Assembly: GCA_020438845.1 (NCBI GenBank)
Contig: JAGQTV010000039.1
Span: 1-64,000 of the forward strand
Source of the DNA: Mycobacterium sp.
GTDB taxonomy: Bacteria; Actinomycetota; Actinomycetes; Mycobacteriales; Mycobacteriaceae
Direction of reading: 5' to 3'
DNA: 64,000 nucleotides
The notes beneath the pieces were generated by a model. The model was not told where the DNA came from, searched no databases, and saw only the letters and a list, made by a program, of their open reading frames with translations. The position numbers and the translations under genes were made by a program. Below are positions 24,595-30,733 of this stretch, in pieces (positions within the stretch are counted from its first letter, which is position 1; the number at the start of each line of letters is the position of its first letter).

Positions 24595-25488
24595 GTGATT
24601 GACTTACCGCTGGCGATCGACGCCTGCCAGCCGGCACGGTTCGGGCTGCATTCGCCGGCTGACGTCGGGCAGATGATCGGCGCCCTTCTGATCCCGGTTG
24701 TGTCAGTCATAGCGATCGCCGTCATATCCCGTCGAAACCCGACAAAGACTCTGCGGTGGACCAGTCGTCGTGCCACGGCCCTGGCCAACCATGCGCTCGT
24801 GATGCCTGCCGCTTTGCTGACGTTGGCAGTCGGGGTGCTTTCCTACGACGCGAGCATCGTCATCGTCATTCCCGCCGATGCGGCATGCCAAACCGGCCTG
24901 GCTGCGTTGGGTCCGGTGGGTCTGTTACTCACGCTTGTCGGTGCGATGGCGGCCGCTTTCGCCCAAGCGGTGGCCAAGCAGTCGGGCTGGGTGTTGCTGG
25001 CTGCCTTCTTTGCACTCGATGTCTGGATCGTGTTCGGGATGGTGATGATGCATCTGGAAGACGCCCCGCGAGCACCCGATCCCATGCTGCTGTTGGCGTT
25101 CATGATGCATGCGGTCTGTATGGCCCTGACCATGGTGTGGGCGTTTCACGCTCGCAACCTGAGCACAATGGCGCAGGTTCGTGCGGACGAGGCCGGCCGG
25201 TCGATCGGAGCGGTGTGGGTGTTCCTGGCCGCCTACGTACTCGTGGGCTTCTTCCAGCCGACCAAAAGTCCTTTCGAGTCGGCGGCCGGTAGTGCGGTGC
25301 TCTCCGCGCTGACCCTGAGTGCGCTGGCACTGACGATGGGCAGTGGCTATACGAAGTACCGGGAAGTGATGAACGAGGAACGGCCCACGGTCGGGGGACT
25401 GGCGCCCACCTCACCGGAGGAGGCGGTCAGCGCGACTGTAGACGTTCATCGAGTCGCCCCGCAGGAAGGCCACCAGAGTCAGTCCTGA
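24595..25488 (+). CDS. Polytopic membrane protein of unknown function
   Basis: 297 aa with about seven hydrophobic segments: near residues 27-45, 66-85, 100-122, 130-151, 162-182, 205-220 and 232-248. The last 45 residues are soluble and cytoplasmic in style. I recognise no transporter or enzyme motif. GTG 24595 is 24 bp after clpX on the same strand, so it may be read through from clpX. The first in-frame ATG is at 24673 and would remove part of the region before the first membrane segment. The 3' end overlaps the convergent fdhD by 78 bp, an unusually long tail-to-tail overlap. Confidence 0.6.
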
Positions 25489-26235
25489 CTCGGCCGCCAA
25501 ATCGACTGCCAGTGATGACGGCGCGGATACCGCAGCGAGAATGGGTATTCCGGCCATCACTGCCTTCTGCGTCAGTTCGAACGATGCCCGGCCACTGACC
25601 AGCAGCACCGTACCGGTGAGAGGCACTCGGCCGGATTCGAGTGCCCAGCCGATCACCTTGTCCACCGCGTTGTGCCGGCCGACATCCTCGCGGACGGCCA
25701 GCGACTCTCCCTCAACGGTGAACAGTCCCGCGGCGTGCAGTCCGCCGGTGCTGGCGAAAACCTTCTGTGCCGAGCGCATTCGGTTCGGCAGCGTGGCCAG
25801 CGTGGCGGAAGGCACGGCGGTGGGATCGTCGCCGGGGGAGTGCCTGCTCGCCAAGCGCACCGCGTCCAGCGATGCCTTCCCGCACACCCCACACGACGAG
25901 GTGGTGTAGAAGTTGCGGGTGACCTCGGGTACGGGCGGCGGCACGTCGGGACTCAGGGTCACGTCGAGCACGTTGTAGGTGTTCAACCCGTCGGCGCCGG
26001 CGCCTTGGCAATAACGAACGGTGGCAACGTCGTCGCGCCGTCCGATGACGCCCTCGGTCAGCAGGAAGCCCTGCGCTAGTTCGACGTCGGAGCCCGGCGT
26101 GCGCATCGTCACCGTCACCGGGGACCCGTTGACCCGTATTTCCAGAGGTTCCTCGACCACCAGTGTCTCGGCCCGTTCCTCGGTCCCGCCCGTGGTGACG
26201 CGGCTGATGCGCCGGCGGGCGGTCACCCGGCCCAT
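25411..26235 (-). CDS. fdhD: FdhD, formate dehydrogenase sulfurtransferase (accessory protein)
   Basis: 274 aa. FdhD carries sulfur from a cysteine desulfurase to the molybdenum cofactor, which is essential for activity of formate-dehydrogenase-type enzymes. The active loop Cys motif SCGVCGK is near residue 125. The C-terminal domain has [11 protein letters not shown] and the [12 protein letters not shown] segment typical of the family. ATG 26235 is 4 bp after the fdhF stop, with GAGAAGG just upstream inside the fdhF end, so the two genes are co-translated. The 3' end overlaps the convergent membrane-protein gene. Confidence 0.93.
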
Positions 26236-26239
26236 GAAC

Positions 26240-28546
26240 TCATGCCTTCTCGAGCCTGATGACGACCGCTTTCGACGCCGGTGTATTCGACTTGGCGGCA
26301 ACGTGATCCAGCGGAATGAGGGGATTGGTTTCGGGATAGTAGGCGGCGGCGTTGCCAGTCGGAGTCGGGTAGGAGATGACGAGGAAGTCCTCGACGCGGC
26401 GTTCTTCAACGCCGCCGTCGGCGTCGGGAAACTCCGACACCAGATCAACCCGGTCGCCGGCCGCCAACCCGAATGCCTCGATGTCAGCGGGGTTGACGAA
26501 GATCACCCGCCGACCGCCGCTGACTCCGCGATAGCGATCGGAGAGGCCGTAAATCGTGGTGTTGTACTGGTCGTGGCTGCGCAGTGTCTGCAGCACCAGT
26601 CGGCCGGCCGGCACCGGCACCCATTGCACAGGCTCCACGGCAAAGTTGGCTTTACCCGTCGCGGTGGGGAACTCGCGCGAGTCCCGCGGCGGATGCGGCA
26701 ACTGGAACCCGTCGCGGGCTCGCACCCGGCGGTTGTAGTCCGCACAGTCGGGTATCACCGCGGCGATCTCTTCGCGGATGGTGTCGTAATCGGCGGCGAA
26801 CCGCTCCCAGGGCACTGGGTGCTCCGGCCCCAGCAGTGCCCGGGCCAGACCGCAGATGATCGAAACCTCGCTGCGCACCGCTGCGCCGGGTGGTTCCAGA
26901 CGTCCACGGGAGAGGTGCACCATGGACATCGAATCCTCAACCGAAACAACCTGTTTACGGCCGTTCGTCAGATCGCGGTCGGTGCGGCCCAAGGCGGGCA
27001 GGATCAGCGCGGTACGGCCCGGAACGAAGTGGCTGCGGTTGAGCTTGGTCGACACCTGGACTGTCAGCGCGCAGTTGCGAAGTGCGGCCTCGGTCACGGC
27101 GGTGTCCGGTGTAGCCGAGGCGAAGTTGCCGCCCATGCCCATGAACACCGACGCCCGGCCGTCGCGCATGGCCCGGATCGCGTTGACGGCGTCATAGCCG
27201 TGCCGGCGCGGGACATCGATACCGAACCGGGTGGCAAGCGCCGAGAGGAAGCTTTCCGGGGCCCGCTCCCAGATGCCCATGGTCCGATCGCCTTGCACGT
27301 TGGAGTGCCCGCGGACCGGGCACACCCCTGCGCCGGGCTTGCCGATCATGCCCCGCAGCAAGAGAACGTTGGTGGCCTCGGCGATGGTCGCCACAGCGTG
27401 GGTGTGCTGGGTCAGCCCCATCGCCCAGCACACCACCGTGCGCCGGGAGGCCGCCAGCATCGCGGCGACGCGCTGCAGTTGTGTGCGGTCGACACCGGTG
27501 GCCTCGACGACGGTGGCAAGATCGAGCGCACGGGCCGCGGCTGCGTAGTCGTCGAACCCGTGGCAGTGGGTGGCAATGAAGTCATGGTCGAGGACAGTGC
27601 CGGGCGCGCGGTCGTCGGCTTCGAGCAGTAGTCGGGCCAAGCCGCGGAACAGTGCCATGTCGCCACCGAGGCGGATCTGCACGAATTCGTCGGCGATCGG
27701 CACCCCGCGCCCGGCTATTCCGCGCACCGTCTGCGGGTCCTTGAACCGGATGAGCCCGGCCTCGGGCAGCGGATTGACCGCAATGATCCTCGCGCCGTTG
27801 GCCTTTGCCTTTTCCAGCACCGTCAGCATGCGCGGATGGTTGGTACCGGGGTTCTGCCCGGCGACAATGATCAGGTCGGCGTTCTCGATGTCGGCGACGG
27901 TGACCGAGCCCTTGCCTATCCCGATCGACTCCGTCAGGGCCGTGCCCGATGACTCGTGGCACATGTTCGAGCAGTCCGGCAGATTGTTCGTCCCGAAACT
28001 GCGAACCATCAGTTGATAGAGAAAAGCCGCCTCGTTGCTGGTCCGCCCGGAGGTGTAGAACACCGCCTCATCGGGGCTTGTCAGGGCGCGTAACTCCTTG
28101 GCGATCAACGCGAAGGCACCGTCGTCGCCGTCCCAGGGGATCGGCCGATAGTGGTCGTCACCGGGCCGCAGCACCATCGGATGGGTGAGCCGGCCCTGCT
28201 GGGAGAGCCAGTATTCCGATCGGTGTGACAAATCGGCCACCGAGTGGCGGGCGAAGAACTCGGGGGTTACCACCCGGCGGGTGGCCTCTTCGGCGACCGC
28301 CTTGGCGCCGTTCTCGCAGAACTCGGCAAGCCGTCGTCCGGCCGGATCCTCCGGCCAGGCGCAACCGGGGCAGTCGAAACCGTCGCGCTGGTTCACTCGG
28401 GCCAGGGTCTGGGCGGTGCGCACAACCCCCATCTCGGTCAGGCCCCGGCGCAGGGCGACCAGCACTGCGCGAATTCCGGCCGCCTCACTTCGGGGATCCC
28501 CGACCGTCACCTGGTGTTCGTTGTAGTCGCCCGGGTAGTCGGTCAT
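26240..28546 (-). CDS. fdhF: FdhF/YdeP-family molybdopterin oxidoreductase
   Basis: 768 aa, like Rv2900c. A bis-MGD-dependent oxidoreductase of the FdhF/YdeP subfamily. The N-terminal CPGCAWPED segment replaces the four-Cys 4Fe-4S motif of classical formate dehydrogenases. The Mo ligand region is [10 protein letters not shown], with Cys where E. coli FdhF has selenocysteine. MGD-binding motifs include [30 protein letters not shown] and the C-terminal dinucleotide domain. Formate is the traditional substrate, but for this subfamily it is unproven. It forms an operon with fdhD and is divergent from mobA, which makes the guanylylated cofactor it needs. Start ATG 28546, 105 bp from mobA. Confidence 0.9.
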
Positions 28547-28651
28547 GGGTAAAACTTATGCTCCGAAATCCTCGCTCGGGACCGATCGGGGTGAGTCTTC
28601 CCGGCTTATCTTTGCTGGAAGGGTGCATAATCGGAACCTGCGGAGAACAAT

Positions 28652-29374
28652 ATGCCGCGGTTGAAGGACGCTGACGTGGGCACGACGAGTGGCGGGGCTA
28701 ATCCGGCGAGCTTGGAGCAGGTCGGCATCCGGTTCGCTGGCGACTCTGGCGACGGCATGCAACCCACCGGTTTGACCTCGTCACACGATCGGCTCGCGGG
28801 GGTGGTGCTCGTCGGCGGGTCGTCGCGCCGAATGGGCCGCGACAAGGCCACGATGCCGTGCCCGGGCGCACCCGGTTTGACGATGGTCGAACATCTCGTC
28901 GGTGTGGTGGGCTCGCGGTGCGCCCCGGTGTTCGTCCTGGCCGCGCCCGGGCAGTCGTTGCCGTCGGTGGCGGCCGAGGTGATCATCGACGATTTCCCGG
29001 GCTCGGGGCCGCTGGCCGCGGTCGCGGGGGGCCTGCGGGCCGCGGCGACGACCGGTGCCGACCGGGCGTTCGTCTGCGCGGTGGACATGCCGTATCTGAC
29101 TGCCGAACTGATAGACCAACTCGCCCAGATCTGCTGCGACGGCCCCGGGATCGATATCGCGCTGCCCTGGGACGGCCGGGATCATTACCTGGCAGGGATC
29201 TACCGCTGCACCCTGGCCGGTCGCATTGAGGCATTGGTCGCCGCCGGGCGAAGGAGCATGCGGTCGCTTGCCGACGTGGCGGTGACGAGTCGGTTGGTCC
29301 TGGATTCCGGTGCCCGGGTGCTGACCAATCTCAATTTCCCCGGCGAGGTGCCGGAGTCGACCGACCCATCCTGA
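28652..29374 (+). CDS. mobA: Molybdenum cofactor guanylyltransferase MobA with a KorA-derived N-terminal extension
   Basis: 240 aa. From about residue 47 it is a normal MobA: nucleotide-binding GVVLVGGSSRRMGRDKA (first Gly of the usual LAGG is Val), then the Mg-binding Asp in FVCAVDMPYLT, then LPWDGRDHYLAGIY, close to Rv2453c. It transfers GMP from GTP to molybdopterin. Residues about 9-40 do not belong to MobA. They match the start of the 2-oxoacid:ferredoxin oxidoreductase alpha subunit KorA, with IRFAGDSGDGMQ. The frame is open throughout. Translation could begin at ATG 28652, at GTG 28676 (the probable old korA start), at ATG 28757 or at TTG 28772. Confidence 0.85.
   Translation: MPRLKDADVGTTSGGANPASLEQVGIRFAGDSGDGMQPTGLTSSHDRLAGVVLVGGSSRRMGRDKATMPCPGAPGLTMVEHLVGVVGSRCAPVFVLAAPGQSLPSVAAEVIIDDFPGSGPLAAVAGGLRAAATTGADRAFVCAVDMPYLTAELIDQLAQICCDGPGIDIALPWDGRDHYLAGIYRCTLAGRIEALVAAGRRSMRSLADVAVTSRLVLDSGARVLTNLNFPGEVPESTDPS
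28676..28771 (+). pseudogene. korA 5' remnant fused in frame to mobA
   Basis: Thirty-two codons encode the N-terminus of KorA, including the Gly-rich GDSGDGM motif that begins its gamma-type domain. Homology stops after MQPTG, where intact KorA continues MQLTGDRFTS. MobA sequence follows within a few codons. In M. tuberculosis the order is korA-korB-mobA, so one deletion removing most of korA and all of korB explains this junction. Confidence 0.75.

Positions 29375-30106
<732 letters not shown>

Positions 30107-30190: not shown

Positions 30191-30733
<543 letters not shown>

Follow-up and report, generated by a model that had tools for sequence, protein, structure and literature searches.

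In Mycobacterium tuberculosis, the genes Rv2455c-Rv2454c-Rv2453c correspond to korAB-mobA and, according to passages of PMC2773412, are likely to share an operon. The mycobacterial locus studied here, contained in a stretch of 64,000 nucleotides that we refer to as the window, has the same flanking order of korA and mobA sequences, with 32 korA codons left and joined to mobA. The question is whether this junction records a natural loss of korAB that turned mobA into a chimeric gene, as a preliminary description of the sequence had proposed, or whether it is better explained otherwise. The comparisons presented below make it very likely that the locus is the scar of korAB loss, in which a deletion of approximately 2.9-3.0 kb placed a korA remnant in frame with an intact mobA gene, with translation predicted to start at the former korA start and to read through into a chimeric protein.

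The open reading frames of the window include a real korA'::mobA frame of 240 codons (Table 1). Over residues 44-234 it scores 253.9 bits against the MobA model NF001855, above the cut-off of 205; against the broader model TIGR02665 the score is 71.9 bits, below the cut-off of 151.85. In 32 of 36 genomes of the genus, a short N-terminal stretch of the same query also matches elsewhere, with 54-69% identity, at a separate place inside an open frame of 653-722 amino acids; wherever this frame was read, it was KorA. The N-terminal matches mostly end at residue 41-43 (in G029, they cover residues 18-54), and a 50-residue N-terminal piece searched alone matched no NCBIfam model at E-values up to 1. 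Compared with 34 distinct intact segments of korA, the 20 residues LEQVGIRFAGDSGDGMQPTG show just 2-4 differences and, therefore, the likeness is not due to chance. The preliminary description had recognized a KorA N terminus in the first ~40 residues of this MobA and had MobA begin within a few codons of the end of the KorA similarity. Both points hold, with the KorA part now refined to residues 9-40, counted from GTG 28676, and the whole mobA frame following from residue 41, across a junction at 28771/28772.

The position of the junction is informative. Residues 41-47 read LTSSHDR and are followed by the conserved LAGVV of MobA, so that TTG 28772 sits seven codons 5' of the conserved MobA Leu and is itself followed by T-S. 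Candidate mobA starts were tallied in the corresponding regions of 54 relatives, several of which have more than one candidate; candidates most often lie seven codons 5' of this Leu (25 of 54, against 11 for the next position), and in 9 of these 25 relatives the candidate continues with T-S or T-T. Because TTG 28772 occupies the modal start position, the junction probably sets korA codon 32 directly in front of the original start codon of mobA. We also considered TTGACCTCG of the window as a slipped form of korA TTCACCTCG, with which 8 of 9 bases agree, but the sequence is better accounted for by the modal position of the mobA start. Ten bases across the junction, CCGGTTTGAC (28767-28776), recur exactly at 28872-28881 within mobA, 105 bp downstream, a direct repeat that possibly reflects chance rather than a trace of the deletion.

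Table 1. Features of the fused gene and its surroundings (positions in the window).
Feature	Positions	Strand	Remarks
fdhD	25411..26448	-	NF001943, 404.5 bits; FdhD similarity from residue 72
fdhF-type molybdopterin oxidoreductase, divergent neighbour	26240..28546	-	TIGR01701, 1046.5 bits
Promoter-like element GCATAATCGG	28625..28634	+	also at G371; as GC(A)ATAATCGG 5' of intact korA genes
GGAG, possible ribosome-binding site for ATG 28652	28642..28645	+	sequence reading
korA'::mobA fused ORF	28652..29374	+	240 aa; 232 aa if GTG 28676 is used
Eight in-frame codons 5' of the korA start shared by relatives	28652..28675	+	translated only with ATG 28652
GAAGGA, probable ribosome-binding site of former korA, before GTG 28676	28663..28668	+	AAAGGC or GGAAGGC type in relatives
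Former korA codons 1-32 (residues 9-40)	28676..28771	+	includes GDSGDG at 28739-28756
Whole former mobA ORF (residues 41-240)	28772..29374	+	TTG 28772 is the probable old start codon

The extent of the loss follows from the spacing of 2 landmarks. The codons for FAGDSGDGMQ and for the conserved MobA Leu are 63 bp apart in the window, compared with 2949-3118 bp between the korA motif and this Leu in 30 of the 32 loci possessing both, a set in which records may overlap in species; the remaining 2 loci, both from Mycobacteroides, have 4307 and 4583 bp. The loss therefore amounts to ~2.9-3.0 kb, in agreement with the ~3 kb estimated previously. A deletion of this size would take korA after codon 32 together with the entire korB, and would bring the korA remnant in frame onto the intact mobA ORF at the start codon of mobA itself. 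The arrangement is that of a gene fusion by deletion: the 2 genes are separate and on one strand in relatives and are joined here, with the intervening sequence missing.

The genome of the window is a draft of 4,526,814 bases in 118 contigs (completeness 99.78%, contamination 2.41%), and its best matches among named records belong to Mycobacterium and Mycolicibacterium. The records found, which may omit further strains of the species, include no second one, and the junction rests on this one draft assembly; a 3-kb collapse, a misjoin or a binning error might thus be suspected. We consider such an artefact extremely improbable, since no tandem repeat was found in 28500-29400, the junction coincides with the probable start codon of mobA, no KorA-type domain is encoded anywhere in this nearly complete genome, and intact korAB is missing at the same place, beside mobA, in 9 other assemblies of the genus.

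The search of the whole genome also bears on the proposal that the KorAB route was lost unless the genes had been relocated. Neither the POR gamma domain (PF01558) nor the POR_N domain (PF01855) had a single match in the genome, leaving it without a candidate KorA. When 8 of its 11 PF02775 loci (the other 3 being weaker hits) were compared with KorB, the best match was 28% identity over 85 amino acids (E = 0.001 in this small set of loci); the KorB-sized, 305-amino-acid frame at 1 PF02775 locus (L014, on contig C110) gave no KorB match in a small local set, even at E-values as high as 10. Relocation of korAB is rejected on these grounds, and the loss of the route appears to be genome-wide, with a Kgd-type gene remaining in the genome.

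As a control, PF01558 is present in 380 of 396 genomes of the genus, and in 355 of 362 of good quality, where 380 is an upper bound for korA because frames of ~1,200 amino acids among the matches show that other proteins carry the domain. Besides the genome of the window, 15 genomes gave no PF01558 match. A mobA gene without intact korAB at the locus was found in 9 genomes (G371, G218, G277, G151, G233, G206, G236, G282 and G336), and 5 PF01558-negative genomes could not be judged at the locus (G150, G284, G288, G353 and G416). In G135, a contig end truncates korA, leaving KorA residues 444-660 and KorB. Weak PF01558 matches were obtained for G099, G139 and G384, the korA of the latter being truncated by a contig end. 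G099 and G139, of 3.3 Mb in one contig each, have weak POR matches (4.8e-7 and 2.1e-7, respectively); the MobA match of G139 contains 3 internal stops and G099 has no MobA match at an E-value of 0.05, as in reductive decay.

The fusion itself was seen only in the window. No other match spanning residues 1-240 was obtained in a set of 61 genomes, in a set of 18 genomes, or among the matches listed for the 396 genomes of the genus, so that the KorA-derived N terminus is not a general feature of MobA proteins in this material. The alignment of MobA proteins, in which the rows of the relatives are trimmed ~7 codons before the conserved Leu, is hence no test of the tail. G200 and G111 were examined as fused relatives, as their matches reach far N-terminal, but in both the korA motif lies ~3 kb upstream.

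To place the window among its relatives, a tree of 34 loci was inferred by a quick search with SH-aLRT support only; 8 of its rows are less than half filled, and G282 and 12 other loci (too few columns) as well as L088 and L163 were left out. The window is sister to G371 (support 99), and 10 korAB-less loci form one clade with the korAB-bearing G135 (support 100; 10 of 11 members without korAB). The korAB-less label requires 2 changes on the tree. Because G135, within the clade, keeps korB and part of KorA, the loss was incomplete in the ancestor of the clade on this tree. One of the korAB-less contigs, L053 (CAMDFY010000058.1), of which the contig alone was seen, comes from a record titled as a Bifidobacterium breve metagenome-assembled genome, yet groups with this mycobacterial clade.

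The scars left in the relatives differ from that of the window, which consists of korA codons 1-32 and mobA, with no korB remnant seen. In the nearest relative found, G371, the element GCATAATCGG is followed by the korA-start-like GTGGGTCAG and by DRCALQALLRGRDTWTVT with a stop codon, similar to the end of KorB in M. kyorinense (DRAALQSLLRGRDTWTVA, also before a stop codon); mobA then follows in another frame. Thus, the junction is not shared with the sister species, a point that the preliminary description had raised as a check. G277 carries VTRFAGDPVDLM...GTAWTIS and a stop codon, which looks like a korA N-terminal plus korB C-terminal remnant, and in G218 KorB residues 268-319 are left. G151 and L053 have a GAAAGG site shortly 5' of mobA, whereas G233, G282 and G206 share a GACAAT box a few bases 5' of a GTG. 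In G236 and G336, a glutamine-synthetase-like ORF occupies the place of korAB on the mobA strand (L155:3416-5686, 757 aa, and L157:8721-10943, 741 aa, respectively); the protein of G236 scores 57 bits against the glutamate-ammonia ligase model TIGR00653, under the cut-off of 429. Capture of the korA start by mobA is not claimed for G336, because of this upstream ORF and a broken mobA. Like the window, G371, G277, G151/L053 and G233/G282/G206 have lost korAB and kept mobA, but an in-frame fusion of the korA N terminus to mobA occurs in none of them. In G371 (L148/L127), no ATG, GTG or TTG is present in the mobA frame within 27 codons 5' of the conserved Leu; its mobA may start at a CTG or be coupled to the 25-codon korA/korB mini-ORF, unless the draft is in error.

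The scars of the window and G371 cannot be derived from each other, which implies either 2 deletions or trimming of a shared remnant. The remnants in G277 and G371, with a korA-like beginning and a korB end, are what would be expected if an internal deletion had first produced an ancestral korA-N::korB-C frame, from which the lineage of the window later lost the korB remnant and the stop codon. We regard this stepwise decay as rather unlikely, given that G135, in the same clade, retains korB and, as far as its contig reaches, at least residues 444-660 of KorA, and that no korB remnant is visible in the window. The earlier proposal of one deletion therefore stands as the simplest history of the locus, not as a proven one, considering the apparent korA-N/korB-C remnants of the relatives.

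Whether the korA codons are translated depends on the signals in front of them. Of 36 intact Mycobacteriaceae loci, 19 carry a GC(A)ATAATCGG element no more than 300 nt 5' of the korA motif, against none of 49 loci of other groups. The exact element is missing from the other 17 intact loci, and it is present in both the scar of G371 and the window. A generic sigma-70 scan of 28500-29700 returned no promoter. In intact relatives, korA starts with a GTG or ATG behind sites of the AAAGGC or GGAAGGC type, and the equivalent codon of the window is GTG 28676; ATG 28652 lies in frame, 8 codons further 5'. Given 2 possible ribosome-binding sites and an uninterrupted frame, the simplest prediction is that ribosomes read on into MobA, and translation from the korA start into MobA appears the likeliest course. 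Transcription would proceed from the retained korA promoter, and ribosomes starting at GTG 28676 or ATG 28652 would yield MobA with a KorA tail of 32-40 residues, while TTG 28772 may serve as an additional start for some of the protein. The preliminary description had mobA left under the promoter and start signals of korA. A promoter-like element and possible ribosome-binding sites do persist, but control by the korA promoter would be no change, because mobA was probably already in an operon with korAB.

The old start codon could instead be the only one in use, in which case the deletion would be real, the korA codons would be merely a leader and no chimera would be made. TTG 28772 does occupy the modal start position, and the T-S or T-T continuation recurs at that position in the relatives mentioned above, but no ribosome-binding site is discernible by eye just 5' of it, GAAGGA makes a good ribosome-binding site before GTG 28676, and the frame open through the TTG would let ribosomes from upstream read through. 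We judge exclusive use of TTG 28772 unlikely and retain the chimera as the preferred product.

The MobA part keeps all 35 columns that are invariant in 37 other MobA sequences, including the signature GGxSRRMGxDK, and departs in 4 columns shared by 34 of the 37 (residues 54, 106, 170 and 186); the nearest solved structures are 1fr9/1e5k (E about 3e-6). Between the window and G371, mobA differs at 45, 33 and 79 first, second and third codon positions, respectively (183 codons), most often at third positions, and the corresponding numbers for FdhF are 90, 47 and 304 (762 codons), a pattern that points to purifying selection on mobA, looser than that on FdhF. The genome has 10 places matching PF12804; L002, the second best of them, obtains its highest score as a MocA-type cytidylyltransferase, below the cut-off of that model. 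Apart from its own gene, the MobA query hits the L002 region only, which makes the fused gene probably the sole MobA of the genome. MobA (molybdenum cofactor guanylyltransferase) would accordingly keep serving molybdo-enzymes such as the divergently encoded FdhF, a possible user of its product.

In the KorA-derived tail, across the 20 codons of LEKVVIRFAGDSGDGMQLTG, not one second-position difference exists among the 561 pairs of 34 distinct intact sequences, whereas the tail of the window has 2 second-position changes, V to G (residue 25) and L to P (residue 38). First-position differences between the window and the intact sequences number 1-3 and third-position differences 4-12, against maxima of 3 and 15 for intact pairs. 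The tail thus seems to be losing constraint without being scrambled, which would fit either a recent or a weakly constrained sequence. These 2 replacements, at sites that do not vary among the 34 intact korA sequences, suggest a relaxing tail, and it is probably tolerated baggage. GDSGDG is retained (residues 30-35), and we take it to be the GXXGXG motif that passages of PMC2773412 assign to CoA coordination in KorA. That the translated KorA piece, with this motif, now works as an N-terminal element of MobA, in stability, partner binding or CoA/nucleotide sensing, is very doubtful; if true, loss of a TCA-cycle enzyme would have created a new regulated form of a cofactor enzyme.

The finding is of value chiefly in that it points to a mycobacterial clade naturally without KOR. 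A PF01558 protein is encoded in none of the 10 korAB-less clade genomes searched. The Kgd-type domain PF16870 was found in the genome of the window and in 14 of 15 genomes searched, and in 9 of 10 korAB-less clade genomes, G233 being the exception in both counts. Oxidation of 2-oxoglutarate would proceed in the window lineage without KOR, probably via the Kgd-type enzyme. Isocitrate lyase matches were obtained in all 35 genomes searched, including the 10 korAB-less ones, and the idea that loss of the glyoxylate shunt made korAB dispensable is therefore unsupported. With Kgd-type and isocitrate lyase genes at hand, the clade would allow comparisons between species to test how KOR and Kgd share their tasks. 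The isocitrate lyase frames (PF00463) vary in length: the genome of the window and G371 have the short form only (438 aa), G218, G151, G233, G206 and G336 the long form only (775-804 aa), as does the korAB-bearing G135, G236 and G282 have both lengths, and G277 has one frame of 408 aa. Eight of the 9 korAB-less relatives, as well as G135, have assemblies of 2.8-3.8 Mb (several of them 83-89% complete), small for the genus, and those of G371 and the window measure 5.0 and 4.5 Mb, respectively.

Passages of PMC2773412 describe korAB of M. tuberculosis as intact and active as KOR, and report a laboratory delta-korAB strain, in which a cassette replaces korA codon 50 to korB codon 334, and state that the loss could be tolerated. 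The stretch missing from the window is similar, but the loss is natural and cassette-free, reaches the mobA start and yields an in-frame fusion. MobA is also found behind an N-terminal partner in the bifunctional models MobA/MobB (NF011059) and MoaC/MobA (NF011070), at profile positions 177-359 and 164-273, respectively; by their names, the partners there belong to the same pathway, as enzymes or adaptors, whereas in the window MobA follows a stub of 32 codons from an unrelated enzyme. Judged by title and the beginning of the abstract, no report of a korA-mobA fusion was found among the open PMC papers listed, and by title no paper on the korAB-less clade was found in the literature on small-genome freshwater mycobacteria. 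Fusion by deletion is a known kind of event, of which the present instance is new. It represents clean natural erosion of an operon: the start of the first gene passes to the last one, giving an in-frame chimera. What the loss of genes has produced here is a chimeric gene, not a new system.

Downstream of the fused gene, 29651-30106 and 30260-30733 (+) contain 2 tandem genes that we take to be resuscitation-promoting factor-like. Their products are 57-60% identical over 108-120 amino acids, and pairs also occur at 13 of the 16 other loci compared.
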